64,000 nucleotides of DNA from an uncultured Gemmatimonadota bacterium. Its GTDB lineage: Bacteria; Gemmatimonadota; Gemmatimonadetes; Longimicrobiales; Longimicrobiaceae. Every line of letters starts with the position of its first letter. The stretch's first letter is position 1. The notes below the pieces were generated by a model, which ran no database searches, was not told the DNA's origin, and worked only from the letters and a program-made list of their open reading frames with translations. Location: contig CADCTW010000203.1 in the NCBI GenBank assembly GCA_902805735.1, positions 1 through 64,000 on the forward strand, given 5' to 3'. This document shows, piece by piece, positions 4,429 through 63,292 of this stretch. Both the position numbers and the translations under genes were made by a program.

Positions 4429-5208
4429 ATGGCCGCCGAGAGGATCGACGTCTGCGGCGCGGGGGTGGACCCCTGCGACATGGAGGACGCCGTGCGCCGC
4501 ATCGTGGAGCGCGCGGCGAACGGCGGCCCCCCTGCCCTGGTCGTCACGCCCAACGCGCACCACGTGGCGCTGCTGCAGGACGTGGAGGAGTTCCGCGCCG
4601 TGTACCGCTCCGCCTGGCTTTCGGTGCCGGACGGGATGTCGCTGGTGTGGGCCTCGCGCCTCCTGGGCACCCCGCTCCCCGAGAAGGTGAGCGGGATCGA
4701 CCTGTTCGTGGAGGTGTGCGCCGCCGTCGCCGGCACGGACCTGCGCATCTTCCTCCTCGGCGGGCGTCCGGGCGCGGCGGAGGAGGCGGCGCGCGTGGTG
4801 GAGGCGCGCTTTCCGGGCCTGCGCATCGCCGGCACCTACTGCCCGCCGCTGGGCTTCGAGCGCGATCCGGAAGAATCCCAGCGGGTGCTGCAGGCCGTGC
4901 GCGGCGCGGCGCCGCACATCCTGTTCGTGGCGCTCGGCGCTCCCAAGCAGGAGCTTTGGATGTACGAGAACCGCGAGCGCCTCGGCGTCCCCGTCTCCCT
5001 GGGCGTGGGCGCGACCTTCGACTTCGTGGCGGGGATGATCCGCCGCGCTCCGCGGTGGATGCAGAAGCGCGGGCTGGAATGGATCCACCGGGCCGCCACC
5101 GAGCCGCGCCGCCTGGGGATGCGCTACCTCGTCACCACGCCGCGCTTCCTCTGGATCTTCCTGAAATCGGGGCTCACACAGAGACACAGAGGCACAGAGG
5201 CTACCTGA
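4429..5208 (+). CDS. WecG/TagA/CpsF family glycosyltransferase
   Basis: A 259-aa member of GT26, which adds N-acetylmannosamine-type sugars to polyprenyl-linked acceptors. Visible family motifs are TPNAHHV near residue 40 (family T-x-N), PDGMSLVW near 67, FLLGGRPG near 105, ALGAPKQELW near 166 and GVGATFDFVAG near 190. It lies 9 bp downstream of the GT2 gene in the same operon. The last dozen residues (LTQRHRGTEAT) and the stop codon are encoded by a CTCTGTGY-family intergenic repeat, so the true ancestral C-terminus was replaced or extended. A second family member lies at 8734-9552. Confidence 0.92.
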   Translation: MAAERIDVCGAGVDPCDMEDAVRRIVERAANGGPPALVVTPNAHHVALLQDVEEFRAVYRSAWLSVPDGMSLVWASRLLGTPLPEKVSGIDLFVEVCAAVAGTDLRIFLLGGRPGAAEEAARVVEARFPGLRIAGTYCPPLGFERDPEESQRVLQAVRGAAPHILFVALGAPKQELWMYENRERLGVPVSLGVGATFDFVAGMIRRAPRWMQKRGLEWIHRAATEPRRLGMRYLVTTPRFLWIFLKSGLTQRHRGTEAT

Positions 5209-5236
5209 CCTCCGTGCCTCCGTGTCTCTGGGTGAG
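5173..5236. repeat. CTCTGTGY palindromic repeat, copy 1
   Basis: Two arms of three 8-bp units around a short spacer, at a convergent junction. Both flanking stop codons (5208 plus, 5201 minus) lie inside it. Confidence 0.85.
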
Positions 5237-6223
5237 GCTGCCGTTGTAGTACCTCATGTAGAGCTCGGCGGAGCGTTCCAGGGTGAGCTCGCGCTCCACG
5301 TATGCACGCGGATCGTAGTCGTGGAGGCGGGGCCAGAAGCGGTCGAAGGCGGCGTCGAAATCGCCGAAGTCGCGGAAGCGGTCGCCGCACTCGGGGGAGA
5401 AGTAGGGGACGGAGCTGGCGGGGACCGGGTCGGGCTCGAAGTCGGCGCGGTGAGGATCGAGCCAGTAGCCGTTGTCCCAGGCGAGGACGGGGACGCCGGA
5501 GGCGAGGGCTTCCTGGTAGGCCAGGCCCTGCGTCTCGTGCTCGCAGAGGAAGAGCATGGAGCGCGACCGAGCGAGCAGGTCGCGATAGGTGGCATGGTCG
5601 TAGAGCTTATAGCGCAGCGTCTCCACGCGCAGGCCGCGGCGGGCGAGGCTCGCCATGACCGGGTCGAGGAGCGCGGGCTCGTAGTGCTCGCGGTTCCAGC
5701 GGATCTTGTCGTACACCAGCACGTCCACGTCCTTGGCGTGGCCGCGGGTATCGGGCCAGCTCGCCGCGTCGATGCCGTTGAACCAGATCACGCACGAGTC
5801 GCCGTAGCGGCGGGCGAACATGCAACGCATCCACTCGCTGCACACCAGGTAGAAGCGGTTGCGCTCGTCTTCCATCAACCCCGGCGCCAGGCTGGGATGG
5901 TCGTACAGCCCCGGACCGAGCACCGCCGGGTTCGGGAGGTCCCATCCCTCCAGCAGGTGCGGGTAGCCGAAGAGGCCGACCGGGTGCTGGGGATTGCGCC
6001 GCGCCGCCGCGTAGTCGTTGATCCGCACGATGTGCCCGCTCCGCCGCAGCGCCTCCGCCAGCAGCTGAAAGGCCATCTGGAAGCCGGTCACCTTCTGCTT
6101 GCGGTTGAAGCGGTTGTACAGGGGGCGCACCAGGCGCTTCAGGTACCGGTCGCCGGGGACGAACCGGTCGGACTCGAAGTCCCGGAAGAAGAGCAGGACG
6201 GTGCGGTCGGCCAGGCGGCTCAC
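5201..6223 (-). CDS. GT-B glycosyltransferase, tandem copy A
   Basis: A 340-aa protein resembling CgeB/GT1-type transferases. The C-terminal half has the GT-B nucleotide-sugar-binding pattern: SRSMLFLCEHETQG near residue 220, YQEALASGVPVLAWD near 236. The start is the GTG at 6223, overlapping the stop of the neighbouring paralogue (GTGA), and the N-terminus (VSRLADRTVLLFF) aligns with that paralogue. Residues encoded by 5826-6023 are almost identical to the paralogue at DNA level, including a perfect 89-bp run. The last residues (SLTQRHGGTEVR) derive from the intergenic repeat. It probably acts on the same polysaccharide as the convergent operon. Confidence 0.8.
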   Translation of the reverse strand: MSRLADRTVLLFFRDFESDRFVPGDRYLKRLVRPLYNRFNRKQKVTGFQMAFQLLAEALRRSGHIVRINDYAAARRNPQHPVGLFGYPHLLEGWDLPNPAVLGPGLYDHPSLAPGLMEDERNRFYLVCSEWMRCMFARRYGDSCVIWFNGIDAASWPDTRGHAKDVDVLVYDKIRWNREHYEPALLDPVMASLARRGLRVETLRYKLYDHATYRDLLARSRSMLFLCEHETQGLAYQEALASGVPVLAWDNGYWLDPHRADFEPDPVPASSVPYFSPECGDRFRDFGDFDAAFDRFWPRLHDYDPRAYVERELTLERSAELYMRYYNGSLTQRHGGTEVR

Positions 6224-8733: not shown

Positions 8734-9552
8734 ATGGAACTGCACGGCTCCACCCGTGAAGACGCGCCTCCCCGTACCCCCGGGTTCCGGATGCTGGGGG
8801 TCCATTTCGACCTGCTGACCACGGACAAGCTGCACCAGGCGGTGGTGGACGCGGTCGAGTCGGACCAGCGGTGGGTGATCGGCGGGCACAACATGCACAG
8901 CATCTACCTGTGCCACCACGATCCCAAGATGCGGCGCTTCTACGAGCGCTCGCACTGGACGTTCCTGGACGGGATGCCCCTGGTGTGGCTGGCCCACTCC
9001 CTGGGGATGCCCGCCCGCCGGGAGCACCGCCACGCGCCGGTGGACTGGATGCCCGGCCTGCTGGCCATCGCGGCCGAGAAGGGGTGGCGGGTGTTCTTTT
9101 TGGGGTCGGAGCCCGGCGTGGGGGAGCGCGGCGCCGCCAACCTGGTCGCGCGCTTTCCGGGGCTGGATCTGCGCACCCATCACGGCTTCTTCGACGCCAC
9201 GCCGGGGAGCGCGGAGGCGGAGGCGGTGCTGGAGGAGATCCGCGCGTGGCGGCCCAACATCCTGGCCGTGTGCATGGGGATGCCGCGCCAGGAGCACTGG
9301 ATCGTGGACCACCTGGACCGGCTGGATGCCAACGTGGTCTTCAACCTGGGCGCCCTGATGGACCTCTTCGCCGGCGAGCTCCCCATCCCGCCGCGCTGGG
9401 TGGGTCAGGTGGGAATGGAGTGGCTCTACCGCCTCTGCTCGCACCCGCGCCGCGTGTGGCGCCGCTACCTGCTGGAGCCCTGGTTCCTCCTCCCGCACCT
9501 CGCCCGCGACCTGAAAAGCGGCTCTCACGGAGGCACAGAGACACGGAGATGA
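8734..9552 (+). CDS. WecG/TagA/CpsF family glycosyltransferase, second copy
   Basis: A 272-aa GT26 enzyme with the full motif set: IGGHNMHSIYL near 45, LDGMPLVWLAHSLG near 78, VFFLGSEPGVGE near 118, CMGMPRQEHWI near 180 and FNLGALMDLFAGE near 203. It differs clearly from the 4429-5208 copy, so the two probably act on different acceptors or are old paralogues. ATG 8734 is preceded by GAGGAAG; GTG 8722 is an alternative. It is divergent from the GH5 gene across about 200 bp that must hold both promoters. Its last residues (SHGGTETRR) and stop come from the adjoining intergenic repeat. Confidence 0.9.
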   Translation: MELHGSTREDAPPRTPGFRMLGVHFDLLTTDKLHQAVVDAVESDQRWVIGGHNMHSIYLCHHDPKMRRFYERSHWTFLDGMPLVWLAHSLGMPARREHRHAPVDWMPGLLAIAAEKGWRVFFLGSEPGVGERGAANLVARFPGLDLRTHHGFFDATPGSAEAEAVLEEIRAWRPNILAVCMGMPRQEHWIVDHLDRLDANVVFNLGALMDLFAGELPIPPRWVGQVGMEWLYRLCSHPRRVWRRYLLEPWFLLPHLARDLKSGSHGGTETRR

Positions 9553-9584
9553 ATTCGTCTCCGTGCCTCTGTGCCTCTGTGTGA
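9523..9584. repeat. CTCTGTGY palindromic repeat, copy 2
   Basis: Full two-arm copy at the convergent junction of the second WecG-type gene and the GH8 gene. The plus-strand stop at 9550-9552 lies in its spacer. Confidence 0.85.
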
Positions 9585-11520: not shown

Positions 11521-11547
11521 CTCTGTGCCTCTGTGCCTCTGTGTGAG
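11521..11547. repeat. CTCTGTGY repeat, single arm, copy 3
   Basis: Three 8-bp units followed by GAG, only one arm. It lies between the stop codons of two convergent genes. Confidence 0.8.
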
Positions 11548-11556: not shown

Positions 11557-13227
11557 TCACCACTTCGTCAGCGTGACCTCGTCCACCTGGAAGGTGCCGG
11601 AGTTGCGCACCTGGAACGCGAAGCCCCACACCTCGGCCCGGGTGAAGCCGTCGTTAGGCGCCCCCGCGGGCTGCCACGAGTTGCGCGTGAACGCCGTCCA
11701 TGGCACCGTGATCTCCCGCCACCCCGTCTGGTCGTCCACGAAGCCCCAGATGAACCCCTCGGAGGCGCCGGTGGCCGGATCCCGGTTCTCCAGCACCTCC
11801 ACCTGCACGTAGTTGCCGCTCGCGCTCCCCTTGAAGCGGAAGCGGAAGCCGGCCGTGTACCTCCAGTCCTGCGCCGTGGTGTACTCGCGGATCAGCCCGC
11901 CGTACGACCCGATGGAGTAGTCCAGCTTCATGGCGTACCGGCTGTCGCGCGCACCGGGAGCCACGCGCGTGGCCGTGGCGGTGGAAGCCGCGTCGGAGTA
12001 CCCCCTCCAGCCGGTCGTCTGCCCGTGCTCGAACGACTCGATCAGGGAATAGAACGGGTGCGGCATGTTGCCCGTGGCCAGCAGCAGCCCGAGCAACCGC
12101 AGGTGATCCACGAAGTAGCCCACGTCCCAGCTCGGCACGTCGGCCGCGTCGGTGTAGAACGTCTCCACGAACGCGCGGTCCGCCGACACGATGGAGCCCG
12201 CCGCCGCCATGGCGTTGAAGGTGTCGCTGTGCCAGGTGGGATTGCGCTCCACCCCTTCCAGGGTGTACTCGTCGCGGATGGCGGTGGGGCCGCCCTTCTC
12301 CACCCACAGCGCGTTCATGCGGTTGAGCCGGGCCCGCGCGTCGGGGTCGCAGTTCCACACCGCGTCCTTGGCCATCCGCCAGGGCACCCGGACGGCGTCG
12401 TAGCCGTAGACGTGGTCTTCCGGCTTGCGGAAGTGGGCCGCGGTGTCGCCGGCCACGGTGGACCAGTCCGGCAGGAGCCGGCGCCCTGGCTTGAAGGTCT
12501 CGATGGCGTTGAGCACCTGGTGCGAGCGCGCCGCCACGTCGTTCCAGCGGGAGTTGCCCGTATAGGTGGCGAACGCCTTGTAGTACGCGGGGTCGAAGTA
12601 CGAGGGGTTCACGTTGTCGTTGGAAGCCCACAGGCCCGCGTTGATCGTGTTGTCCGCCTCCACCCCGTAGGTGAGGAGCGAGTTGATCAGCGCGGTCGCG
12701 TCCGTCTTGTAGCCGCCCCAGCGGAAGTCGGCCACGATGAGGGCGAACGCCATGTCCTCGTCGCCGTCGGTGGCGAAATCGCCGCCGCCGGGCACCGTTC
12801 CGTCGGCCAGGATCTCCCAGGGCATCAGCGTGTGCCCGCGCGACCCGTCGTGGTAGCTCCTGGCGTACCGCCACAGCCCGTCGAAGGTCGTCTGGTCGCT
12901 GAAGTAGGCCGAGAGGAGCATGCCGTAGCCGATCCCCTCCGAGAAGGTGCGGGAGGTGTTGTCGTTCATCGCCGACAGCACGCGCAGGTTGGCGCCGGCG
13001 GTCCGCACGTACTTCGCCTTCCAATCCGCGTACAGCTCGTCGAGCCGCTGGTTGGCCGCGGCCTGGTCGGGGGCGATGCTGGTGTGGCAGGCGTATGCGT
13101 AGCCGGAACGGGAGCCGCTCGCCAGCAGGCGCGGCTCCACCGGCGCGCCGGGGCCGGCCCCGGTGATGCCGTCCTGGCAGGCGGCGAGGGCCGCCGCCGC
13201 AAGCACGGCCGCGAATTGTTTCCGCAT
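11557..13227 (-). CDS. GH8 glycoside hydrolase with C-terminal carbohydrate-binding domain
   Basis: A 556-aa secreted lipoprotein: signal peptide with LAAC lipobox, a GH8 domain at about 45-385 and a C-terminal beta-sandwich at about 395-556 resembling CBM11/CIA30 galactose-binding folds. Catalytic blocks are FSEGIGYGMLLSAY near 100 and FATDGDEDMAFALIVAD near 150. ATG 13227 is preceded by GGAGGT at good spacing. It is a paralogue of the gene at 9592, from which it is separated by the lipid-kinase gene, but adds the binding domain, so the two probably act on soluble versus attached polymer. Confidence 0.9.
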   Translation of the reverse strand: MRKQFAAVLAAAALAACQDGITGAGPGAPVEPRLLASGSRSGYAYACHTSIAPDQAAANQRLDELYADWKAKYVRTAGANLRVLSAMNDNTSRTFSEGIGYGMLLSAYFSDQTTFDGLWRYARSYHDGSRGHTLMPWEILADGTVPGGGDFATDGDEDMAFALIVADFRWGGYKTDATALINSLLTYGVEADNTINAGLWASNDNVNPSYFDPAYYKAFATYTGNSRWNDVAARSHQVLNAIETFKPGRRLLPDWSTVAGDTAAHFRKPEDHVYGYDAVRVPWRMAKDAVWNCDPDARARLNRMNALWVEKGGPTAIRDEYTLEGVERNPTWHSDTFNAMAAAGSIVSADRAFVETFYTDAADVPSWDVGYFVDHLRLLGLLLATGNMPHPFYSLIESFEHGQTTGWRGYSDAASTATATRVAPGARDSRYAMKLDYSIGSYGGLIREYTTAQDWRYTAGFRFRFKGSASGNYVQVEVLENRDPATGASEGFIWGFVDDQTGWREITVPWTAFTRNSWQPAGAPNDGFTRAEVWGFAFQVRNSGTFQVDEVTLTKW

Positions 13228-17258: not shown

Positions 17259-17322
17259 CTCACACAGAGACACAGAGGCACAGAGATAAGTTCATCTCTG
17301 TGCCTCTGTGTCTCTGTGTGAG
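17259..17322. repeat. CTCTGTGY palindromic repeat, copy 5
   Basis: Near-perfect copy: two three-unit arms around the spacer ATAAGTTCAT, at the convergent junction of the GntR gene and the secreted nuclease gene. Confidence 0.9.
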
Positions 17323-20547: not shown

Positions 20548-20743
20548 GTGCGGTTCTCGGTCAGGTGTTTGGAGGCGGCACGGGAAGGGCAGCCACGCGG
20601 GCAGGGCTGGAAACGACGAGCATTTCCAGCCCACAACAGTAATCCGTTTCCCACGATCGGGCAACGGACGAGTGTAACATTCTGTGTGCAAACGTGTTAC
20701 GCCGCGAGAAAATGGCCCCGCGGAGGCGTGGGACATTGCATGG

Positions 20744-20808
20744 CTCACACAGAGACACAGAGGCACAGAGATGAAGTTCTTCTCTGTGCCTCTGTGTCTC
20801 TGTGTGAG
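20744..20808. repeat. CTCTGTGY palindromic repeat, copy 6
   Basis: Full two-arm copy just past the 3' end of queD, between two minus-strand genes. Confidence 0.9.
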
Positions 20809-20818
20809 CCAGGGCGGT

Positions 20819-21175
20819 TCAGTCGCCGCGGTACACGCACCCGGTCGTGCACGTCTCCCGCACCACCACTTTGCTGAGCCCCGGCAGCGCCGGCCGCAAC
20901 CGCGCCCAGATCCACCGCGCCAGGTTCTCGCTGGTCGGGTTTTCCAGCCCCTCGATATCGTTCAGGTAATGGTGGTCCAGCCGTTCGTGCAGCGGCCGGA
21001 ACGCGCGCTTCAGCTCCGCGAAGTCCGCCACCCACCCCGCGTGCGGGTCCACCGGCCCGCTCACGCACACCTTCACCCGGAACGAGTGGCCATGCAGCCG
21101 CGCGCACTTGTGATCCGCCTCCACGTTCGGCAGCCTGTGCGCCGCCTCGAACCCGAACTCCTTGAATATCTCCAT
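20819..21175 (-). CDS. queD: 6-carboxytetrahydropterin synthase QueD
   Basis: A 118-aa member of the 6-pyruvoyl-tetrahydropterin synthase family, converting dihydroneopterin triphosphate in the queuosine/preQ0 pathway. The zinc-binding histidines appear in FEAAHRL (residue 13) and LHGHSF (residues 29 and 31), with the catalytic cysteine in HKCARLHGH (residue 24) and a C-terminal VRETCTTGC segment. Length is typical of QueD. No other queuosine genes lie in the window. PTPS activity is excluded on context and size rather than by a decisive motif. Confidence 0.9.
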
Positions 21176-21397: not shown

Positions 21398-22861
21398 GTG
21401 TTCGTCAAATCGCTGCGCATCTCAAACCTGCGGTCCATCGCGAGCGCAGAGGTGAGCTTCTGCCATCCCGGCTCCGAAGAGCCCCCGGAGCTCCCGAACG
21501 TCACGCTGCTGCTGGGCGACAACGGCGTCGGAAAGACATCCGTGCTGCGCGCCGTCGCCCTCTCCATCCTGTCGCCGCTCATCGAGTCGTCCGGGTTCAC
21601 GCCCTACAACCTCGTGCGGCGCACCGGCGCGGGCGTGATGCCGGGGGCGGGTCTGGAAGCCGAGCTGGTGCTCCACGAGCAGGACCTGACCGGGACGCGG
21701 CATTCCGCGCCGCTGAACGTAGAGGTGACCGCCGAGATCGTGCGGCGTGGCGACGTGGAGCGGGTCGTCTCCCCGGCCTGGGGGGACAACCTGTGGGAGG
21801 GGATGTTCCACGAGAGCTCCCCCGCATTCCTGGTCGTTGGCTACAGTGCCGGCCGCCGCGTGGAGGGCGCGGCCTCGTTCGACACCTCCATCCGTGCCAA
21901 GTCGCGCAACATCCGCTACCAGAGGGTCGCGGGGCTATTCGAGGAAGGGGTTACGCTCACCCCGCTCGGCGCCTGGCTCCCCCGTTTTCAGGGTGAGAAC
22001 AAGGGGCGCTACTCCCAGGTGATCCGGCTGATCAACGACCTCCTCCCCGAGGGGACGCGGATCACGGACCAAATGGAGAACAACGGCGAGTACCTCTTCG
22101 AGCACAACGGCACAAAGGTCCCGTTCGGCGCCATGTCGGACGGGTACCGCGCGTACATCGGCTGGATCGCGGACCTCCTTTACCACGTGTGCATGGGCGC
22201 GCCGAAAGGCAAGAAGCTGGTCGACAACTACGGCGTGGTGCTCGTGGACGAGATCGACCTGCACCTCCACCCGGCCTGGCAGAGGGAGGTGGTTCCGCAA
22301 CTGGCGCGCGCGCTTCCCAACCTGCAGTTCGTGCTGACCACGCACAGCCCCATCGTGGCGGGCACGCTGCAGGCCGCGAACATCCGCCTGATCGAGCCGG
22401 ACGAGACGGGCGCTTCCACCATCCAGCGGATCAACGAGCGCATCCACGGCCTCAATGCCGACCAGATCCTGGTGAGCTCCTACTTCGGCCTGGAGTCCAC
22501 CCGCGCGCCGGAGGCCGTCAACACGCTCCGCTCGTTATCGCGCAAGGCCCGCCGGGGCGACGACGACGCCGTATACGCCTTCCTGAAAGAGCTGTCTGCC
22601 GAAAGCGACGAATGGACGGGCTCGGGCGAGGCTTTTTCCCCGCACTCGGGGTCCGGCGCGGCGCGCTCCGGTACCGCGAGGACGGGTTCGGCTAAGAAGA
22701 GTGCCAGTGCGTCCAAGACTCCCGCCTCCGCGGCCGCCGTCAACAAGACCTCTGGTGGCGGCGCAAAGAAAACGCAGCGTGCGGAAAACGCGTCGGGCAG
22801 CTCCAGGGCCAGCAACAAGGCGCGGGCGAAGTCCGCGCGGTCCAGGAGGAAAGACCAATGA
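21398..22861 (+). CDS. ptuA: Septu-like PtuA ATPase with basic C-terminal tail
   Basis: A 487-aa SMC/RecF-type AAA ATPase: Walker A GDNGVGKTS at 40-48, a signature-like AMSDGYRAY at 245-253, Walker B VVLVDEIDLHLHP at 280-292 and LTTHSP at 313-318. It overlaps by ATGA an HNH nuclease gene, the layout of the Septu anti-phage system (PtuA senses/gates, PtuB cuts). GTG 21398 follows GGGAGG. Unusually, residues 410-487 form a Ser/Ala/Lys/Arg-rich, low-complexity tail like histone H1, which could bind DNA or RNA. A TTA leucine codon at 22535-22537 is rare in this GC-rich sequence and hints at transfer. Septu assignment is by family pattern. Confidence 0.8.
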   Translation: MFVKSLRISNLRSIASAEVSFCHPGSEEPPELPNVTLLLGDNGVGKTSVLRAVALSILSPLIESSGFTPYNLVRRTGAGVMPGAGLEAELVLHEQDLTGTRHSAPLNVEVTAEIVRRGDVERVVSPAWGDNLWEGMFHESSPAFLVVGYSAGRRVEGAASFDTSIRAKSRNIRYQRVAGLFEEGVTLTPLGAWLPRFQGENKGRYSQVIRLINDLLPEGTRITDQMENNGEYLFEHNGTKVPFGAMSDGYRAYIGWIADLLYHVCMGAPKGKKLVDNYGVVLVDEIDLHLHPAWQREVVPQLARALPNLQFVLTTHSPIVAGTLQAANIRLIEPDETGASTIQRINERIHGLNADQILVSSYFGLESTRAPEAVNTLRSLSRKARRGDDDAVYAFLKELSAESDEWTGSGEAFSPHSGSGAARSGTARTGSAKKSASASKTPASAAAVNKTSGGGAKKTQRAENASGSSRASNKARAKSARSRRKDQ

Positions 22862-23766
22862 TCCGCCACCCGGTCGCCCGGGACGAGCTGGAGCCGCTGA
22901 TCGACGCGCTGGACGACCGATGGCTTACAAAGGCCGGCGCGCGCACGGAGGAGCTGCGGAGGGCGGGCCGGTGGGACGGCGGCGTGAAGATCTGGTCGGA
23001 CATCAAAGGCGTTTACCGCGGCTTGCAGCACGACAAGTGCGCCTTCTGCGAGCGTCGCCTTGCGGGCCCGCCGTATGGGGCGGTCGATCACGACGTGGAG
23101 CACTTCCGGCCCAAGGGCGCCGTGCGCGGGTGGCCGCCCGCGGCCAGGGGGCGCGACCGGCTCTCCTACTCGTTCGAGACGGGCGGCGACTGGCCGGAAG
23201 GGTACTACCTGCTGGCGTTCAACCCGTGGAACTACACCACGGCCTGCAAAGTCTGCAACTCGGCGCTGAAGCGGAGCTACTTCCCCGTAGCCGGGCGGCG
23301 GATTTCGGGCGCCGAAGACCCGTGGGCCCTGAAGTCGGAAGGCGCGTTCCTCGTTTACCCTCTCGGCGAGATGGATGCCGATCCGGAGAGCCTGATCACC
23401 TTCCGCGCGAATCTGCCTGTTCCGCGCGTCAAGTCGGGCCCGCGCTTTCGCCGCGCGTCGGTGATCATCGACTTCTTCCGGCTGGACATCCGCGAGGAGC
23501 TGCTGTGGGAGCGCTCGGACCGCATCGTCTCCCTCTTCATGGCGTTGGATCTGGCGGCGACTGGAAGCGCCTCGCGTCGTGCCCTCGCGGAGCGCAGCAT
23601 CGCGCAGCACCTGTCCCCGTTCAGCCCGCACACGAGCTGCTCGCGCGCCTTCCATGACCTCTACCAGGCCGATCCCGACGAAGCTGCCCGGATCGCCGAC
23701 GAGTGCCAGCTCTACCTCGATTCCCATTCGCGGCCCCAGCCGGCGGCGCGAGGCCGAAGGCGCTGA
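22858..23766 (+). CDS. ptuB: Septu-like PtuB HNH endonuclease
   Basis: A 302-aa HNH nuclease, probably the effector of a Septu-like pair. A zinc knuckle is formed by CAFCE (Cys61, Cys64) and CKVCN (Cys130, Cys133); the catalytic core is DVEHFRPKG (79-87) and FNPWNYTTAC (121-130, Asn125). The C-terminal half (RRASVIIDFFRLDIREELL and SCSRAFHDLYQ) is helical and unlike restriction HNH enzymes, but matches the style of nucleases paired with RecF-type ATPases. Start overlaps ptuA by ATGA, so expression is coupled. The C-terminus is Arg-rich. It should cleave invader nucleic acid when released by PtuA. Confidence 0.8.
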   Translation: MIRHPVARDELEPLIDALDDRWLTKAGARTEELRRAGRWDGGVKIWSDIKGVYRGLQHDKCAFCERRLAGPPYGAVDHDVEHFRPKGAVRGWPPAARGRDRLSYSFETGGDWPEGYYLLAFNPWNYTTACKVCNSALKRSYFPVAGRRISGAEDPWALKSEGAFLVYPLGEMDADPESLITFRANLPVPRVKSGPRFRRASVIIDFFRLDIREELLWERSDRIVSLFMALDLAATGSASRRALAERSIAQHLSPFSPHTSCSRAFHDLYQADPDEAARIADECQLYLDSHSRPQPAARGRRR

Positions 23767-23767: not shown

Positions 23768-23825
23768 CTCACACAGAGGCACAGAGACACAGAGGAGAAA
23801 CGGCTCCTCGGTGCCTCTGTGTGAG
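23768..23825. repeat. CTCTGTGY palindromic repeat, copy 7
   Basis: Two-arm copy, right arm shortened, starting 1 bp after the ptuB stop and facing the tRNA terminator. Confidence 0.85.
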
Positions 23826-26536: not shown

Positions 26537-26538
26537 GT

Positions 26539-26604
26539 CTCACACAGAGACACAGAGGCACAGAGAAAAGCGTCTTTCTCTGTGCCTCTGTGTCTCTGTG
26601 TGAG
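26539..26604. repeat. CTCTGTGY palindromic repeat, copy 8
   Basis: Near-perfect two-arm copy filling the convergent gap between the 61-aa gene and the HIT gene. Confidence 0.9.
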
Positions 26605-26605
26605 A

Positions 26606-26950
26606 TTATGCCGTTCCGTGGCCGGTGAGCTGCTTTCCGCCGATGACGTGCAGGTGGAGATGGGGGACGGTCTGGCCGCCCTCGTCGCCGATGTTGATGA
26701 TGACGCGGTAACCGCTCTGGGCTACGCCCGCCTGCTCGGCCACGGTGCGCGCGGCGAGGAGGAGGCGGCCGGCGAGCTCGCCGTCGCCGTCCGCGAGGTG
26801 GGCGACGGATTGTACGTGCTTGCGGGGGACGACCAGGATGTGCACCGGCGCGGCCGGGTGGATGTCCGGGAAGGCGACCACCTGGTCGTCCTGGTACACC
26901 AGCTTGGACGGGATCTCGCCCGCGGCGATGCGGCAGAAGATGCAGCTCAT
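26606..26950 (-). CDS. HIT-family nucleotide hydrolase
   Basis: A 114-aa histidine-triad protein of the HinT type, hydrolysing adenosine phosphoramidates and related nucleotides in the cytoplasm. CIFCRI at residues 3-8, HILVVPRKH at about 37-45 and the triad PHLHLHV near 96-102 are all present. Its ATG overlaps the prmA stop (TGATG), so it is the last gene of the hrcA-dnaJ-prmA operon. Confidence 0.95.
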   Translation of the reverse strand: MSCIFCRIAAGEIPSKLVYQDDQVVAFPDIHPAAPVHILVVPRKHVQSVAHLADGDGELAGRLLLAARTVAEQAGVAQSGYRVIINIGDEGGQTVPHLHLHVIGGKQLTGHGTA

Positions 26951-33752: not shown

Positions 33753-33826
33753 CTCTGTGCCTCTGTGCCTCTGTGTCTCTGTGTCTCTGTGTCTCTGTGT
33801 CTCTGTGCCTCTGTGTCTCTGTGTGA
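33753..33826. repeat. CTCTGTGY repeat, expanded single arm, copy 9
   Basis: Nine consecutive 8-bp units (CTCTGTGC or CTCTGTGT) instead of three, ending GTGTGA, between convergent flippase and dprA genes. Confidence 0.9.
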
Positions 33827-35989: not shown

Positions 35990-36016
35990 CTCTGTGCCTC
36001 TGTGTCTCTGTGCGAG
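35990..36016. repeat. CTCTGTGY repeat, single arm, copy 10
   Basis: Three-unit arm just past the 3' end of the 36025 gene and upstream of obgE. Confidence 0.8.
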
Positions 36017-37744: not shown

Positions 37745-37826
37745 TTCAAAACTAAAGGAGGAGAGGCACCTCGGCACCCCTCCTCCCAAAGTTCGTTGCC
37801 CGGCTGGCCGCTTCTACACGGCTCCG

Positions 37827-39473
37827 CTACTTCCGTGTCGCCGCGGCGGGGCGCGGGGGCTGCGCCGCCTGCGCCGCGCGGAAGAGCGCGGCCTGGTTGG
37901 GCGAGGCGCGCAGGAGCCGGATGGCCTCCTGCAGCACCTTGTCGCCGGCGTCGTTGCGCTGCGCGGCCACCGAGGGCCCGAAGCGCGAGCGGGAGATCTC
38001 GTCCACCAGGCGGATGTCCACGAAGCGCTGCGCGGCGTTGAACTGCTCGCGCGTCACGGCCACCCCGGCGCGGGTGAGGCGCTCGAACAGGGTGTTGCGC
38101 ATCTCCGGCGTCACCTGGAAGCTCGGCGTGAGCCCCGGGTTGGCGCGGCCGTACTCCACCGCGAAGCGCAGCAGCTCGCTCTCCCACTTCCCCACGTCCT
38201 TGGCCAGGGCGCGGAAGAAGTCCTTCTCGGCCGCCGTGGCCGTGTCCTGCGTCACCACCAGGTCCGGCACGATCCCGCCGCCGCCGTACACGGTGCGCCC
38301 GCCGTCCGTGCGGAAAGGAGTGCGCGTGACGGTGTCCTGAATGATGGGCGCGCCCGTCTCGCTGACCTCGGCGGTCTCCTCGGCCGCCTCGGCGTCGTCA
38401 CCCTCCTCGTGCTCCTTCTGGATGGAGCGGCCCACGGGCGTGTACCACTTCGCCGTGGTCATCTTGAGGAAGTTGCCGCCCGACAGGGGGAAGAGCGACT
38501 GCACGGAGCCCTTGCCGTAGGTGGCGCTCCCCATCACCAGCGCGCGGTCGTGGTCCTGCAGCGCGCCCGCCACGATCTCCGCGGCGCTGGCCGAGTACTC
38601 GTCCACCAGCACCACCACCGTGAGCTCCGGGTACGACGCGTCGTCCATCGCGCGGAAGGTCTCGCTCTCGCGCGGGTCGCGGGCGCGGGTCTCCACGATG
38701 GGCTGCCCCGTCTTCAGGAACAGGTCGGAGACGGAGACGCCCTGGTTGAGGAGCCCGCCCGGGTTGCGGCGCAGGTCCAGCACCAGCGACTTCATCCCCT
38801 CGCCGCGCAGCCGCGCGATGGCCGCGCGGATCTCGTCGGTGGACGTTTCCGCGAACACCGTGAGGTTGACGTACCCCACCCCCGGCGCCGCCATGTAGGC
38901 GTACGGCACCGACTGCACGCGGATCTCGGCGCGCGTGATACGGAAAGTGATCGGCTCGTCCACGCCCACGCGCAGCACCTTGATGGAGACCGGTGTCCCC
39001 TTGGGGCCGCGCAGCACCTTGACCGCCGCGTCGTCGCTCCACCCCTTGGCGTCGCGGCCGTCGATCTCGATCATGCGGTCGCCCACGCGCACGCCGGCGC
39101 GCTCGGCCGGGGTGCCCGGGAGCACGCCCACCGCCGTGATGTAGTTGTCGCGCGGGGCGATCTGGATCCCCACGCCGCCGTACTCGCCGCTGGTCTGCAG
39201 GTGCAGCTGCGCGTACTCGTCGGCGGACATGAAGGAGGTGTGGGGGTCGCCCAGCTCGCGGAGCATCCCCTTGATGGCCTTCTGGTACAGCTCCGACGCG
39301 GGCTGCGGATCGACGTAGCGGGTCTGCACGTAGCGGATCACCTCGTCGAACAGCTCCGCGCGCCGGTAGACGCTGTCCTGCGCGCCGGCCCCCTGCTGCA
39401 GGAGCCATCCGCCGGACACGAGTGCGACGCCGGCCACCAGCGCGGGGGCAACGACGGTACGGTTGAGCTTCAT
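37827..39473 (-). CDS. S41-family C-terminal processing protease
   Basis: A 548-aa periplasmic or membrane-anchored CtpA-type protease. Signal/anchor segment at 8-34, PDZ domain at about 95-175 (GGVGIQIAPRDNYITAVGVLPG, GVRVGDRMIEIDG), S41 catalytic core at about 195-400 with Ser in EYSASAAEIVAGAL near 299 and the Lys of ATYGKGSVQSLFPL near 325. A 140-aa helical C-terminus follows. ATG 39473 is preceded by GGGAGG; the ATG at 39485 is too close to it. It processes or degrades envelope proteins. Confidence 0.93.
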   Translation of the reverse strand: MKLNRTVVAPALVAGVALVSGGWLLQQGAGAQDSVYRRAELFDEVIRYVQTRYVDPQPASELYQKAIKGMLRELGDPHTSFMSADEYAQLHLQTSGEYGGVGIQIAPRDNYITAVGVLPGTPAERAGVRVGDRMIEIDGRDAKGWSDDAAVKVLRGPKGTPVSIKVLRVGVDEPITFRITRAEIRVQSVPYAYMAAPGVGYVNLTVFAETSTDEIRAAIARLRGEGMKSLVLDLRRNPGGLLNQGVSVSDLFLKTGQPIVETRARDPRESETFRAMDDASYPELTVVVLVDEYSASAAEIVAGALQDHDRALVMGSATYGKGSVQSLFPLSGGNFLKMTTAKWYTPVGRSIQKEHEEGDDAEAAEETAEVSETGAPIIQDTVTRTPFRTDGGRTVYGGGGIVPDLVVTQDTATAAEKDFFRALAKDVGKWESELLRFAVEYGRANPGLTPSFQVTPEMRNTLFERLTRAGVAVTREQFNAAQRFVDIRLVDEISRSRFGPSVAAQRNDAGDKVLQEAIRLLRASPNQAALFRAAQAAQPPRPAAATRK

Positions 39474-39531
39474 TCCGCCTCCCATGGAGCTAATGCGGGG
39501 ACACCCTCCCCCGTGGGTCGTGCGAGACCAG

Positions 39532-39561
39532 GTAGTGCCTAGTGCCTGGTGCCTAGTTGCC
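39532..39561. repeat. CCTAGTG repeat, short array
   Basis: Three to four units of the CCTAGTG family (AGTGCCTAGTGCCTGGTGCCTAG) between the protease start and the tmk stop. Confidence 0.75.
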
Positions 39562-39639
39562 AGACCCGATGCCGTCCGTCCGTGCAGTTCAGCACCCAGG
39601 ACTCAGGACTCGGGGCCTGAAAACCGCCACAGCACCTGC

Positions 39640-40308
39640 CTATCTTGTAAACCCGCTCCCCGGAAAGGTTTCCGGGAACCGGGACGCGAGTGCGGCGACC
39701 ACGCGGCGGTGCACCTCGTCCGCGGGGGCTCCCGCGTCCACCCGCACGACTCCTGCCACGCGGCCGGCCATCTCGCGGTACGCGGCCGCCACCCGACCGT
39801 GGAACTCCGCCCCGGCGCTCTCCATGCGGTCCGGGTCCATCCCGGCGGCGCGCTGGCGGCGGGCCCCTTCGTCCGGGTCCAATTCCAGCAGCACGGTGGC
39901 GTGGGGCGAGAGCCCGCCCGTGGCCACGGCGTTGCAGGCCACGATCTCGTCCGCCGGCAGCCCGCGCCCGCCCCCCTGGTAGGCCAGGGTGGAGAGCTCG
40001 AAGCGGTCCGCGATCACCACCCGGCCCTCGGCCAGTGCCGGCCTCACCACCTGGTCCACGAAGGCCGCGCGGGCGGCCAGCATCAGGAACAGCTCGCTGC
40101 GGGCGGGGACGGCCAGCTCCAGGTCCGAGAGCACGGTGGCGCGCACGCGCTCGCCGAGTGGTGTCGAGCCGGGCTCACGCGCCACCACCGGCGCCCGCCC
40201 CCGCTCCGCCAGCAGGGCGGCCAGGAGGCGCACCTGCGTGGTCTTCCCCGAGCCCTCCACCCCCTCGAAGGCAAGGAACAGGCCCGCTGCGGTCATCTCG
40301 TGATCCAT
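39640..40308 (-). CDS. tmk: Thymidylate kinase
   Basis: A 222-aa P-loop kinase (LAFEGVEGSGKTTQ near 12-25) making dTDP from dTMP. DRFELSTLAYQGGGRGL near 120-136 is the substrate-binding loop and the lid has RRQRAAGMDPDRME near 170. Length is typical. ATG 40296 is an equally possible start four residues downstream. Confidence 0.94.
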   Translation of the reverse strand: MDHEMTAAGLFLAFEGVEGSGKTTQVRLLAALLAERGRAPVVAREPGSTPLGERVRATVLSDLELAVPARSELFLMLAARAAFVDQVVRPALAEGRVVIADRFELSTLAYQGGGRGLPADEIVACNAVATGGLSPHATVLLELDPDEGARRQRAAGMDPDRMESAGAEFHGRVAAAYREMAGRVAGVVRVDAGAPADEVHRRVVAALASRFPETFPGSGFTR

Positions 40309-40322
40309 GTAAACAGACGGGG

Positions 40323-40384
40323 CTCACACAGAGACACGGAGACACGGAGAAAGCAATCTCTGTGTCTCCGTGTCTCCATGTGAG
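40323..40384. repeat. CTCTGTGY palindromic repeat, copy 11
   Basis: Full two-arm copy with several CTCCGTGT units, just past the 3' end of the 40410 gene. Confidence 0.9.
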
Positions 40385-40409
40385 CCATGCTGTCGCCCGA
40401 AACCGCTCT

Positions 40410-44986: not shown

Positions 44987-45013
44987 TTCTGTGTCTCTGT
45001 GCCTCCGTGTGAG
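44987..45013. repeat. CTCTGTGY repeat, single arm, copy 12
   Basis: Three-unit arm 24 bp past the mazG stop and 30 bp ahead of the sensor kinase gene. Confidence 0.8.
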
Positions 45014-47151: not shown

Positions 47152-47207
47152 CTCACACAGAGACACAGAGGCACAGAGAAACGCTTTTCTCTGTGTCTCT
47201 GTGCGAG
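47152..47207. repeat. CTCTGTGY palindromic repeat, copy 13
   Basis: Two-arm copy, right arm one unit shorter, filling the whole convergent gap between the lipoprotein and recG. Confidence 0.9.
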
Positions 47208-49357: not shown

Positions 49358-49384
49358 CTCACACGGAGACACAGAGGCACAGCG
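49358..49384. repeat. CTCTGTGY repeat, single arm, copy 14
   Basis: Left-type arm (CTCACACGGAGACACAGAG...) just past the ftsY stop and upstream of recG. Confidence 0.8.
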
Positions 49385-50355: not shown

Positions 50356-50417
50356 TCACACAGAGGCACAGAGGCACAGAGAAGAACCCATCTCCGTGCC
50401 TCTGTGCCTCTGTGTGA
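50356..50417. repeat. CTCTGTGY palindromic repeat, copy 15
   Basis: Full two-arm copy just past the 3' end of the superoxide dismutase gene. Confidence 0.9.
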
Positions 50418-52730: not shown

Positions 52731-52855
52731 GAGCGATTGAAATCACCGCTGGAACCACGCGAAGTCCCCTGCGGGGACTATCCGGCTCCGGCTGGAATCG
52801 AAGGAACAGTCCACGGAGCGGACTTCGCGTAGGTCCAGCGTCGTTTCAATCGCTC
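52731..52855. repeat. MITE-like inverted-repeat element
   Basis: Arms 52731-52767 and 52820-52855 are imperfect inverted copies (GAGCGATTGAAA...CGCGAAGTCC), and a perfect GTCCCC-TGC-GGGGAC hairpin sits at 52764-52778. Non-coding. Confidence 0.75.
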
Positions 52856-52904: not shown

Positions 52905-52964
52905 CACAAAGACACGGAGGCACAGAGATGAACCAATCTCTGTGCCTCTGTGTCTCTGTGTGAG
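52905..52964. repeat. CTCTGTGY palindromic repeat, copy 16
   Basis: Two-arm copy with a decayed left arm, just past the 3' end of parA at a convergent junction. Confidence 0.88.
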
Positions 52965-52974: not shown

Positions 52975-53787
52975 TCACCCCGCCGCCCGCCCCTTCCTCT
53001 CCTCGGACACGGGCGCGTTCATCCCGTACCGCTGCATGAGCTCCACGGCCAGCGACAGGTAGCTCCGCGCCCCCACGGACCGCGCATCGTACGCGAGCAC
53101 GGGGCGCTCGAAGCTGGGCGCCTCGGCCAGCCGCACGTTGCGCGGGATGACGGTGGCGAAGGTGCGCTCGCCCAGGTACCCGCGCACCTCCGCGGCCACA
53201 CTCTGCGCGAGGGACAGGCGCCCGTCGAACATGGTGATGAGGGCGCCCTCGATGCGCAGCGACGGGTTCAGCGTCCTCACCAGCTCCAGGTTCTCCATGA
53301 GCTGCGAAAGCCCTTCCAGGGCAAAGAACTCCGCCTGCACCGGCACCAGCACGCTGTCCGCGGCCACCAGGGCGCCCAGCGTGTACAGCCCCAGCGCGGG
53401 CGGGCAGTCCAGCAGCACGAAGTCGTACAGGTCGCGGATGGGGAGGAGCGCCTCGCGCAGCCGCTGCTCGCGGCCGGGGAGGCTGGCCATCTCCACCTCG
53501 CCGCCCAGCAGGTGCTCGCTGGTGGGGACCACGTCCAGGAACGCGATGTCCGGCGAGCGCACCACGGCGCTGGCCAGCGGCGCCCCGTCGAAGAGCACGC
53601 CGTACAACGACGACCGCGCCGTGTTGCGCAGCTCCGCCGGGAGGAGGCCGCTGGAGGCGTTGCCCTGGGGGTCCAGGTCCACCACGAGCGTGCGCTTCTC
53701 GGCCGCGGCCAGGCTGGCGCCGAGGTTCACGGCGGTGGTGGTCTTGCCGACCCCGCCCTTCTGGTTGGCGATCGCGATGACTGGCAT
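52975..53787 (-). CDS. ParA/Soj-family partition ATPase
   Basis: A 270-aa deviant Walker ATPase (NQKGGVGKTTTAVNLG at 8-23, VDLDPQGNAS near 46, FVLLDCPPALG near 122) of the ParA/Soj class that positions chromosomes or other cargo. No ParB gene follows, and no parS-like TGTTTCACGTGAAACA site is visible in the window, so it is either the chromosomal Soj with parB elsewhere or an orphan positioning ATPase. Gene symbol withheld for that reason. Confidence 0.88.
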   Translation of the reverse strand: MPVIAIANQKGGVGKTTTAVNLGASLAAAEKRTLVVDLDPQGNASSGLLPAELRNTARSSLYGVLFDGAPLASAVVRSPDIAFLDVVPTSEHLLGGEVEMASLPGREQRLREALLPIRDLYDFVLLDCPPALGLYTLGALVAADSVLVPVQAEFFALEGLSQLMENLELVRTLNPSLRIEGALITMFDGRLSLAQSVAAEVRGYLGERTFATVIPRNVRLAEAPSFERPVLAYDARSVGARSYLSLAVELMQRYGMNAPVSEERKGRAAG

Positions 53788-60776: not shown

Positions 60777-60786
60777 ACGAGTTAGC

Positions 60787-60931: not shown

Positions 60932-61420
60932 ATGACGATCGCGACCGCGCCCGAAGCCGCACGGCGGCCCGGGCAGATCCTGAAGGAACTGTTCATCGAC
61001 AGCGACCCGTCGCTCACCCAGGGACGGGTGGCGCTGGGGATGGGCATCTCGCGCCCGCACCTCAACGACTTGCTGAACAGGCCGGAGAAGCGGGTGACTC
61101 CGGAGATGGCGCTGCGCCTGGCGCGCTTCTTCGGCACCCGCGCGGAAAGCTGGCTCTACGCGCAGGCGGATTGGGATCTGCGCCTGGCCCGTTCCAACCG
61201 CCGCCTGGCGATGCAGGTGGAGCGCATCATCCCCTGGCGCAGCGACGTGGGCCCCATCTTCCGCCACCCGGCGGAGGGTGGGAACGCCGCCGCGGAGCTG
61301 GTCCCCACCCTGCGCCGCGAGGAGATCGCGCAGCGCGTGCGGGAGCGCGTGGCCCCCGGCCGCGCCGCCGAGCGCCGCAAGATCAGCCCGTCCAGCATCC
61401 GCTTCCCGCGCAGCGCCTGA
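60932..61420 (+). CDS. Orphan HigA-like XRE regulator
   Basis: A 162-aa protein with a HigA-type helix-turn-helix at about 10-85 (RRPGQILKELFIDSD, LTQGRVALGMGISRPHLNDLLN, RVTPEMALRLARFFGTRAESWL), extended by a 70-residue Arg-rich C-terminus. No HigB-type toxin lies on either side, so it is not a standard addiction module. Two TGTAAG-N7-CTTACA palindromes between it and ku are natural candidate binding sites. Starts at 60881 (TTG) or 60905 are possible; 60932 matches the family. Confidence 0.82.
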   Translation: MTIATAPEAARRPGQILKELFIDSDPSLTQGRVALGMGISRPHLNDLLNRPEKRVTPEMALRLARFFGTRAESWLYAQADWDLRLARSNRRLAMQVERIIPWRSDVGPIFRHPAEGGNAAAELVPTLRREEIAQRVRERVAPGRAAERRKISPSSIRFPRSA

Positions 61421-61784
61421 GCGCCCGGCGCGCCCGCGGTCCCGCGGGCGCGCCCCCCATCCAGAACATCGTTCCTGCACCCGGAACAGAGTGTCGGCGT
61501 CCGAACGGCCGCGGAGCTTGTGCTTCGCCCCGAAAACGCGCATTCTGTCACACCGATGGCGGAAAGAGCGCGTCTGTTTCAGGGCGGCAGGAATTGGGGG
61601 CGGACGTGGGGGGTCGTGAGTGGCCGCCTAGTGCCTAGTGCCTAGTGCCTAGTGCCTAGTGCCTCGTATGTGGCAACTGCGGTTTGGGGCTCAGCGCTTC
61701 TGCAGTTCAGTGTTTCGGGCAGATGCACACGCGTTCTCGATTTTTCCTGTTCATACCTCCCTCTCCCTCCTTCGGCCGGCTCCC
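61421..61784. other. Gene-free region with CCTAGTG array
   Basis: No gene seen in 364 bp. It contains the CCTAGTG tandem array at 61627-61668 and a pyrimidine-rich stretch (61741-61770) just ahead of the 117-aa gene, where its promoter should lie; no clear promoter boxes are seen. Confidence 0.65.
61627..61668. repeat. CCTAGTG tandem array
   Basis: Five perfect 7-bp CCTAGTG units and a sixth with one change (CCTCGTA), same family as 37651 and 39532. Confidence 0.9.
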
Positions 61785-62138
61785 ATGATGCGTACCGTGC
61801 ACCTGCCGCCGCACCTGTATCTCCCCGCCCGCCCGGCGTCGGGCGGCGAGCCTCGCGACGTTCCACCCTGGGACGGCGCGCGCGACTACGTTACGGACGG
61901 CGCGCGCTACGGCGTGCGCTTCGAAAGCGGAGCGGTGATGTGGTTCCCCGGCTCGGACCGGTTCCGGGTGGAGGAGCTGCGCGCGGACTTCGCGGGGGCG
62001 GACCTGGACGCGCTGGTGGACGGGCTGCGCAGGTACGTCGCGGACGACGAGCGGCTGCGGGCCCTGTGGGCGGGGGACCTGGCGGCGCTGGACCGGTTGC
62101 GCGTGGAAGTGGCCGCGCACGCGGCGGGTGAAGCATGA
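61785..62138 (+). CDS. Hypothetical protein overlapping ftsZ
   Basis: A 117-aa protein with no recognised family: a beta-rich start (RTVHLPPHLYLPARP), a central GARYGVRFESGAVMWFPGS strand pair and a helical C-terminus (EELRADFAGADLDALVDGL). Its stop overlaps the ftsZ start by ATGA, so it is co-translated with FtsZ and may regulate division. Start chosen at the first of two tandem ATGs. Confidence 0.65.
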   Translation: MMRTVHLPPHLYLPARPASGGEPRDVPPWDGARDYVTDGARYGVRFESGAVMWFPGSDRFRVEELRADFAGADLDALVDGLRRYVADDERLRALWAGDLAALDRLRVEVAAHAAGEA

Positions 62139-63220
62139 GCCCGCGGGGCCGCCCGGTGTTCGAGTTCGAGGACGTGGTGCCCGGCGCGCGGATGATGGTG
62201 GTGGGGGTGGGCGGCGGCGGCGGGAACGCGGTGAACCGGATGATCGAGGAGGAGCTGGAAGGCGTCGAGTTCGTCGCGGTGAACACGGACGCGCAGGCGC
62301 TCCGCCAGTGCTGCTCGGACGCCAAGATCCAGATCGGCCGCAAGCTGACGCGCGGCCTGGGCGCCGGCGCGCGCCCGGAGGTGGGGCGCGCGGCCTTCGA
62401 GGAGAGCGCGGACGAAATCCGGAAGGCGCTGGCGGGCGCCGACCTGGTGTTCGTGACGGCGGGGATGGGGGGTGGCACGGGGACCGGCGCGGCACCCGGG
62501 ATCGCGGCGCTGGCGCGCGAGATGGGCGCGCTGACCGTGGCCGTGGTGACGAAGCCGTTCCTGTTCGAAGGGAAGAAGCGGATGCGTCAGGCGGAGGACG
62601 GCCTGGGCGCGCTCACCGACGCCTCGGACACGCTGGTGCTGGTGCCCAACGAGCGGCTCCTCTCCGTCGTGGGCAAGGGCACCTCGTTCAAAGACGCCCT
62701 CAAGAAGGCGGACGAGGTGCTCCTCCACGCCACGCGGGGGATCTCCGGCCTCATCAACGTGACCGGTGACGTCAACGTGGACTTCGCGGACGTGCGCACC
62801 ATCATGAGCAGCCGGGGCGCCGCGCTGATGGGGATGGGCCACGGCCGCGGCGAGCACCGCGCCGAAGAGGCTGCCCGCGAGGCGATCTCCTCACCCCTGC
62901 TGGAGGACGTCTCCATCCGCGGCGCCGCCGGCGTGCTCATCAACATCGCCGCGGGCGCGGACCTCACGCTGGACCAGGTAAGCACCGTCTCCTCGCTCGT
63001 CCAGGAGGCCGCGGGCGACCAGGCCGAGATCATCTTCGGCACCGTGCACGACGACACCCTGGCCGAGGAAATCCGCGTCACCGTGATCGCCACCGGCTTC
63101 GCCAAGCCCACGGCCCCCGTCGTGACAAGTCACCCCGGGCGCGGCGGCCTGGGCCCCATGGGCCGCATCAGCGCCACCGCCGACCTGGAGCAGCCCGCGT
63201 TCCTTCGCCGCCGCGGTTAA
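62135..63220 (+). CDS. ftsZ: Cell division protein FtsZ
   Basis: A 361-aa tubulin-like GTPase forming the division ring. N-terminal glycine loop VGVGGGGGNAVNRM near 24-36, tubulin signature AGMGGGTGTGAAP at 109-121 and T7 loop NVDFADVRTIM near 211 are intact. The disordered linker is very short (about 25 residues) before the conserved C-terminal peptide DLEQPAFLRRRG, which binds FtsA/ZipA-type anchors. The gene is not in a cell-wall division cluster but overlaps a 117-aa gene. A second FtsZ elsewhere cannot be excluded. Confidence 0.93.
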   Translation: MSPRGRPVFEFEDVVPGARMMVVGVGGGGGNAVNRMIEEELEGVEFVAVNTDAQALRQCCSDAKIQIGRKLTRGLGAGARPEVGRAAFEESADEIRKALAGADLVFVTAGMGGGTGTGAAPGIAALAREMGALTVAVVTKPFLFEGKKRMRQAEDGLGALTDASDTLVLVPNERLLSVVGKGTSFKDALKKADEVLLHATRGISGLINVTGDVNVDFADVRTIMSSRGAALMGMGHGRGEHRAEEAAREAISSPLLEDVSIRGAAGVLINIAAGADLTLDQVSTVSSLVQEAAGDQAEIIFGTVHDDTLAEEIRVTVIATGFAKPTAPVVTSHPGRGGLGPMGRISATADLEQPAFLRRRG

Positions 63221-63228
63221 AGAACAGA

Positions 63229-63292
63229 CTCACACAGAGACACAGAGGCACAGAGATGAACTTATCTCTGTGCCTCTGTGCCTCTGTGTGAG
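63229..63292. repeat. CTCTGTGY palindromic repeat, copy 17
   Basis: Near-perfect two-arm copy with spacer ATGAACTTAT between ftsZ and ccmD; the ccmD stop (TAA on minus) lies in the spacer. Confidence 0.9.

Follow-up and report, generated by a model that had tools for sequence, protein, structure and literature searches.

Short palindromes dispersed past the ends of bacterial genes are an already known kind of element. The repetitive extragenic palindromic (REP) sequences of the GTAG/CGTC type are described in PMC3733652 as preferring convergent and co-directional gaps, as lying less than 20 bp from stop codons and as often supplying the stop codon through their GTAG ends. Inverted DNA uptake sequences form Rho-independent terminators in Neisseria and the Pasteurellaceae, and the bidirectional ones have A-rich and T-rich flanks (PMC1852404). 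In addition, REPs of E. coli lying 15 nt or less from a stop codon are reported to stall ribosomes (Liang et al. 2015, as cited in PMC12306157). Here we describe an element of this kind, a palindrome built from the 8-bp unit CTCTGTGY, in a stretch of 64,000 nucleotides from an uncultured Gemmatimonadota bacterium (contig CADCTW010000203.1, positions 1 to 64,000; hereafter the window). The genome of origin is termed G000 (5.79 Mb in 254 contigs, with 86% completeness and 5% contamination), other G numbers being comparison genomes and L numbers the loci read.

We consider it somewhat probable that the element is a dispersing palindrome resembling REPs and miniature inverted-repeat transposable elements (MITEs), which acts as a bidirectional terminator and as a hairpin at 3' ends. 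With the GTAG/CGTC REPs and REPINs it shares the form of short dispersed palindromes and inverted dimers placed near stop codons in convergent and co-directional gaps, and like REPs it is high-copy, extragenic and palindromic (233 copies in 912 kb of G000, 138 of them with two arms). It differs from them in having about three tandem 8-bp units per arm, an outer end of the form AACnGC..GCnGTT and no GTAG or CGTC tag, a unit sequence that varies between genomes, no tie here to a REP-associated tyrosine transposase (RAYT), and a stem of about 30 bp as against the 6-9 bp of most GTAG families (PMC3733652). Like the uptake-sequence terminators, it reaches about a thousand copies or more and forms hairpins from an inverted short unit, but it has two or three tandem units per arm, its unit changes between related genomes, and the spread through coding sequence is missing, with 3/233 copies in genes (isolated single units not being counted). 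The stop-proximal REPs of E. coli likewise place a stable hairpin shortly past the stop codon, whereas the CTCTGTGY sequence is unrelated to theirs. No paper matched the element sequence or its peptide strings, and no such family was returned by topical full-text searches, whose scope excluded subscription journals and preprints; they brought up no description of arms made of tandem units, of the lack of REP tags and of a RAYT link, of the contrast between one-arm and two-arm copies, of unit dialects or of a range across phyla.

In the window, CTCTGTGYCTCTGTG at two or fewer mismatches gave 57 matches against 0.24 expected, a number reached in 0/100 shuffles, and these were grouped into 16 element copies, 11 of which have two arms (left CACAGAG, right CTCTGTG). 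The sequence-only reading had counted 17; the recount with a home-made gene caller gives 16, and the gap at 13.23-13.40 kb has a degenerate trace that may be the seventeenth. Copies occupy 9/10 convergent, 7/36 co-directional and 0/9 divergent junctions, and the sole convergent junction without one (54757/54768) has a gap of only 10 bp. The near-universal presence between convergent genes that had been claimed is therefore retained, at 9/10 instead of 10/11, and the count of seven copies between co-directional genes is unchanged. The arms are inverted CTCTGTGY arrays as had been described, but the element is longer, since beyond the units it has an outer end, conserved in part and approximately GTGAGCCCnGCnGTT, that had been missed. 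In 351 profiled arms of G000 this end reads (GTG)AG(A/C)CC.. and has a T-rich patch, but no GTAG/CGTC tetranucleotide tag. An Rfam scan of the window gave a tRNA as the sole RNA family match.

Placement was followed in a sample of 912,016 bp from 48 contigs of G000 (16%), in which 729 genes were called by a self-trained caller written for this analysis. Exact 15-mer matches in G000 number 1,332 + 1,365, and the 233 copies of the sample, about 255 per Mb, extrapolate to about 1,480 genome-wide. The initial grouping gave 57 convergent, 55 co-directional, 2 divergent and 4 contig-edge two-arm copies, and 22 convergent, 69 co-directional, 17 divergent, 3 intragenic and 4 edge one-arm copies. After inspection of this initial list, those one-arm copies that show a weak second arm were re-classed as two-arm, which resulted in 138 two-arm copies (64 convergent, 67 co-directional, 2 divergent, 5 edge) and 95 one-arm copies (15, 57 and 17, with 3 within genes and 3 at edges). 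The numbers expected from intergenic length are 25.5, 76.5 and 31.0 for the two-arm form and 17.1, 51.2 and 20.7 for the one-arm form in convergent, co-directional and divergent gaps, respectively. The depletion in divergent gaps is thus special to the two-arm form, because only 2/133 two-arm copies lie there (31.0 expected) versus 17/89 one-arm copies (20.7 expected; Fisher p=5e-6); the contrast is independent of the re-classing, being 2/114 versus 17/111 in the initial grouping. If termination is borne out, this pair of forms would offer a built-in comparison for the old question of whether repeats of the REP type do useful work or are junk. The confinement to gene 3' ends that had been proposed accordingly holds for two-arm copies and fails for one-arm copies, and the absence from divergent regions, true of the window, was a small-sample statement that does not extend to one-arm copies in the 912 kb. 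In this sample, an even spread into promoters and coding regions was not found for the element as a whole, with 3/233 copies in genes; it is mostly the one-arm copies that lie in divergent gaps.

Among junctions of at least 40 bp in this sample, two-arm copies are present at 57/91 convergent, 65/288 co-directional and 2/96 divergent ones, and copies of any form at 71, 110 and 19, respectively. With the same mobile-looking hairpin at 57 of 91 convergent junctions, a single repeat may have reshaped many gene ends of this genome. In co-directional gaps 60/67 two-arm copies are closer to the upstream stop, and the orientation of one-arm copies relative to transcription splits 34 against 23 (counts only).

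A stable stem-loop 3' of the stop codon is predicted for the two-arm copies: RNA folding of 6 of the 11 in the window gave -38 to -70 kcal/mol, with z between -6.6 and -14.9. Coupling between the arms was assessed in the two-arm copies of the 912 kb, of which 137/138 could be parsed. Of these, 13 were excluded as out of register; in 117 of the remaining 124 the loop is 8-13 nt long. Units opposite each other agree at the variable positions 4 and 8 with phi 0.52 and 0.60 beside the loop; for the second unit the values are 0.37 and 0.55, and for the outermost one about 0. At position 4 crossed units gave 0.28 and 0.23, at position 8 they gave -0.26 and -0.03, and the two inner units of one arm gave 0.26 and -0.23. 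The mean phi of opposite units (0.51 versus 0.05 for crossed units) was reached in 0/2,000 partner permutations and 0/2,000 level swaps. The coupling is pair-specific and fades away from the loop, and it is consistent with selection for the hairpin.

In G000 the array is set in register with the stop codon. Of the 351 arms 344 could be placed, and 223 of these face a stop; in 83 of the 223 the array ends 10-12 nt from the stop, and a second mode, at 3-4 nt, comprises 28. A ribosome at the stop codon extends about 10-12 nt beyond it, which would suit the first mode. An array lies within 45 nt of 244/706 gene ends and at 7-16 nt of 145. At the latter, AA or AC directly follows the stop in 81/145 cases versus 41/462 element-less ends (p=1e-30), and TAA is the stop in 47/145 versus 44/462. 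Since arms facing no nearby stop are likewise enriched in the motif's complement, GTT (48/113 versus 514/4,000 random intergenic stretches), the stop-adjacent letters seem to be part of the element's own end. Open reading frames (ORFs) enter the element in 18 genes of G000, and the tails listed are mostly translated arm, for example ..SHRDTEAQR before the stop, with at least one (C1 80368) that is not; such arm-derived tails would mislead protein annotation with false C-termini. Gene 36025-36606 ends 9 aa short of its four relatives shown, whereas the end of gene 26606-26950 is shared, to the residue, with relatives that have no copy. Read most simply, the element provides the stop codon or lies directly against it.

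Gene ends with the element also differ in their other hairpins, a strong hairpin being defined by a score and threshold of our own. Element-less ends carry one in 113/244 cases versus 16/244 after mononucleotide shuffling, starting at a median of 22 nt from the stop, and element ends in 158/206, starting at a median of 8 nt. Once the element is masked, ends that retain 40-600 nt show a further strong hairpin in 13/67 two-arm, 19/46 one-arm and 101/198 element-less cases. Stratified by context and length (60-600 nt), the odds ratio relative to element-less ends is 0.19 for two-arm ends (p=3e-6) and 0.51 for one-arm ends (p=0.13); the 40-160 nt class alone (7/39 versus 29/96 with another hairpin) is not significant (p=0.20). 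T frequency past the array in G000 is 0.37-0.42 at +8..+12, partly from the stops of facing genes, which read TCA or TTA there, and T is also raised, less strongly, past arms not facing stops; the native hairpins of G000 show at most 0.38, at +2..+7 past the stem. In G529 the patch reaches 0.82-0.86 at +8/+9 versus a background of 0.15 (22 tails), and it is strong in G490 (8 tails).

These gene ends bear on a different role, which we judge unlikely, in which the stem would guard the 3' end of the messenger RNA against 3'-5' exonucleases or brake the ribosome while termination takes place elsewhere. The array mode at 10-12 nt after the stop falls inside the 15-nt stalling range reported for the E. 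coli REPs and the predicted stems are stable, which speaks for such a role. At two-arm convergent ends, however, less than 60 nt is left in 92/110 cases, and because 0/92 of these tight ends have another strong hairpin, transcription would have to stop at the element or inside the adjacent gene; this is only suggestive, as comparably short co-directional element-less ends hold a strong hairpin in merely 1/28 cases. Moreover, the T patches on either side suit a bidirectional terminator.

According to the terminator reading, the complete form would be approximately stop codon-AACnGCnGGG-CTCAC-(8-bp unit)x3, a loop of about 10 nt and (unit)x3-GTGAG-CCCnGCnGTT. Its RNA would fold into a stem of some 30 bp, and on either strand a T-rich patch lies 8-12 nt beyond the array; a single copy could thereby terminate transcription arriving from either direction and cap the two messenger RNAs. 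As its outer end would supply or adjoin the stop codon, insertion at a gene end might exchange stop and terminator cheaply; copies at gene ends would then persist, two-arm copies in promoter regions would be purged, and one-arm copies, unable to form the hairpin, would be tolerated there. The bidirectional terminator or messenger RNA hairpin proposed from sequence alone is in this way favoured for two-arm copies by divergent exclusion, arm coupling, the deficit of other hairpins and the T patch. Observed in G000 are the positions, the predicted fold, the coupled arms, the shortage of other hairpins and the turnover between species, from which termination, protection of 3' ends, insertional mobility and provision of the stop codon are inferred. 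Should termination be true, the element would be a naturally occurring example of a dispersed repeat that spreads the signals marking gene ends.

Several observations weigh against this explanation. The arm coupling could also stem from template-switch repair between the arms at the DNA level, and the crossed-unit mean of 0.05 masks structure, with position 4 coupled and position 8 anti-coupled. Strand-specific selection on the RNA, sought through G.U versus A.C pairs, was dropped: co-directional copies gave 63 versus 41 (p=0.039) and convergent copies, at 46 versus 36, tilt alike. One-arm copies lie nearer the upstream stop in 42/57 co-directional cases without a hairpin, and one divergent copy is present among the 10 two-arm copies placed in relatives of the genus. 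Avoidance of divergent gaps is not specific to CTCTGTGY, other repeat families of G000 having 0/11, 0/8, 2/20 and 1/13 places there. The 10-12 nt stop register is absent outside G000: 15/36 distances in genus relatives are below 40 nt, and distances are scattered in G529, G490 and G120, where the two-unit pattern used may miss outer units. The T patch is short and offset from the stem, and in G120 (25 tails) it is weak. Finally, no transposase was found, nor an exact empty site, for which the relatives are too diverged.

The dispersed-element character is supported by the relatives. Exact 15-mer matches range from 0 to 2,697 per genome in the genus, nine congeners having 0 to 252. Sites turn over and are re-used, because at orthologous junctions copies are often missing from relatives, present in relatives alone or exchanged for another dialect. 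G005 and G006 often have no copy there (for example at 35990, 49362 and 50359), with other hairpins or repeats instead, and in the reverse case relatives carry one where G000 has none (gene ends 44, 45 and 51). At junction 44987 a single CTCTGTG arm is found in G000, two arms in G006, none in G004, and in G005 a CTCCGCG-type element enclosing a CTCTGTG array; at another junction TTTGCGTC units in G005 stand against CTCTGTGT in G006, with a similar outer end. This patchy copy number, the absence or replacement at orthologous junctions and the rarity of the other G000 repeat families in divergent gaps would also suit the other idea raised from sequence alone, a repeat tolerated only past 3' ends, here taken as a selfish one with no host function and a position bias due purely to purging. 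We find this quite unlikely, as purging should strip one-arm copies from promoter regions too, yet these are not depleted (17 versus 20.7), and a selfish repeat predicts neither the unit-level arm coupling nor the hairpin deficit at two-arm ends.

That the family is a REP/REPIN one mobilised by a Y1 (RAYT) transposase is very improbable: it is palindromic, dispersed and 3'-end biased as the GTAG/CGTC REPs are (PMC3733652), and G000 has two Y1 genes, one of them (L052) with full copies on either side, but both are directly flanked by other palindromes, the outer end has no GTAG or CGTC tag, only 1/30 Y1 loci has an array within 400 bp and eight genomes with arrays gave no Y1 match. At L052 the Y1 gene and its own palindromes (1239-2046) stand between two complete CTCTGTGY copies, an arrangement unique among the 30 loci read (32 places found), and L052 is the only one with an array within 400 bp of the Y1 centre. 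Arrays are present with no Y1 match in 8/21 genomes searched (G004, G120, G210, G271, G288, G348, G362 and G400), two of which are listed as 100% complete. Y1 as a general mobiliser was rejected on these counts, and the copies may have spread by converting one another.

A second palindrome family, GGGGGATTCATCCCCC..AGCCCGCTTCAGCGGGCT, occurs at 33583-33715 in the window and at 1380-1975 in L052, where it is the direct flank of the Y1 gene, with which it probably makes a classical RAYT/REP pair. A third, AGTCCGC..GCGGACT (window 52747-52840; L051 1360-1950), resembles the sequences flanking the L051 Y1 gene, and the window stretch has more than ten further matching places in G000. The two Y1-flanking families have 8-20 places per pattern in G000, and 0-4 of 9-15 stop distances are below 20 nt; the CTCTGTGY pattern counted alike has 203 places with 135/250 distances below 20 nt.

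The MITEs NEMIS, RUP and Nezha, which are named in PMC3733652, are also small, non-coding, dispersed, gene-adjacent elements with terminal inverted repeats. CTCTGTGY differs from them in that its inverted repeats are tandem-unit arrays, and no parent or related insertion sequence or target duplication turned up in the stretches read. Larger CTYYGYGY versions, with about 190-420 bp between unit arms, were seen in L213 (G400, 1000-1400), L214 (1050-1440), L215 (G377) and L216 (G214). One long copy of G400 holds AACAGC runs and that of G377 a run of N. These long versions are possible parent elements.

Three consecutive CTYYGYGY units are present in 56/395 genomes of the phylum of G000 (1,603 matches in G000, 418 in G005 and 122 in G120), in 2/14 genomes from loci of other groups and in 29/119 genomes of the phylum of G401, labelled Acidobacteria. 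The latter phylum should be distinct from that of G000, as the sets of 119 and 395 genomes share no member; the 38% G+C of G478, one of the 119, was taken as a further sign. The unit dialects are CTCTGTGT, CTTTGCGT, CTCCGCGC, CTTCGTGT and CTTTGTGC; among the matches listed, G478, G490, G529 and G419 each favour one dialect, and G271 and G440 are mixed. The regions read outside G000 are few and were mostly picked for holding matches or synteny with the window. In them, the 27 copies of genus relatives comprise 11 convergent, 14 co-directional, 1 divergent and 1 edge copy; placement is non-divergent in 13/13 copies of G529 and 5/5 of G490; the 19 copies of G120 comprise 15 non-divergent, 0 divergent, 2 intragenic and 2 edge ones; and a single stretch of G210 has one co-directional copy. 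G478 was left out of this context test, with merely 2 genes called in 53 kb. As a tentative and rather doubtful extension, a (CTYYGYGY)n superfamily across at least two phyla may constitute a RAYT-free mobile gene-end cassette (stop, stem and two-way T patch), whose units would tend to be homogenised within each genome into a dialect of its own, so that a single spreading sequence would exchange the terminators of a whole genome jointly; the mixed-dialect genomes and the looser stop register outside G000 weigh against its strongest form.

The individual window copies illustrate these arrangements. Among the two-arm copies between convergent genes, both flanking ORFs enter that at 5173..5236, with tails ..TQRHRGTEAT and ..TQRHGGTEVR, and the ORF of the plus-strand gene terminates within 9523..9584. 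The copy at 17259..17322 has perfect 29-bp arms (minimum free energy (MFE) -59.5 kcal/mol, z -9.7), that at 26538..26605 occupies a 69-bp gap (MFE -63.3, z -14.9), and that at 47152..47207 occupies a 57-bp gap with stops at 3 and 4 nt (MFE -38.1). At 52905..52963 the stop of gene 52975-53787 (minus strand) is 12 nt away, and at 63227..63292 a minus-strand ORF terminates in the loop (..SHRGTEAQR; MFE -59). Between co-directional genes, the two-arm copy at 20741..20811 (MFE -70.4) has the stop of 20819-21175 (minus strand) 12 nt before it, 23768..23825 lies downstream of gene 22858-23766 (plus strand) with a minus-strand tRNA-Ala gene next, 40321..40386 has CTCCGTG as the second unit of each arm (MFE -60), and at the junction of 50356..50417 an unrelated G+C-rich hairpin is found in G005 and G006. 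The one-arm copies in convergent gaps are 11521..11547 (plus strand, three units), 13 nt from the stop of the minus-strand gene 11557-13227, and 33753..33826 (plus strand, nine units), 10 nt from the stop of gene 33836-34942 (minus strand). Those in co-directional gaps are 35990..36014 (plus), 12 nt downstream of the stop codon of 36025-36606 (minus), 44987..45013 (plus), with a stop 23 nt before it, and 49358..49384 (minus), 3 nt past the stop of the minus-strand gene beginning at 49388.

Other repeats of the same tandem-unit design, with unrelated units, were also seen. The 7-bp unit TAGTGCC forms inverted or tandem arrays in the window (37649-37747, and the gaps 39473-39640 and 61420-61785), and relatives carry arrays of 8-bp AGTGCGTT or AGTGCGTG at other junctions. 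Separately from these, L229 (G288) holds three head-to-tail copies of an element of about 160 bp at 914-1497.

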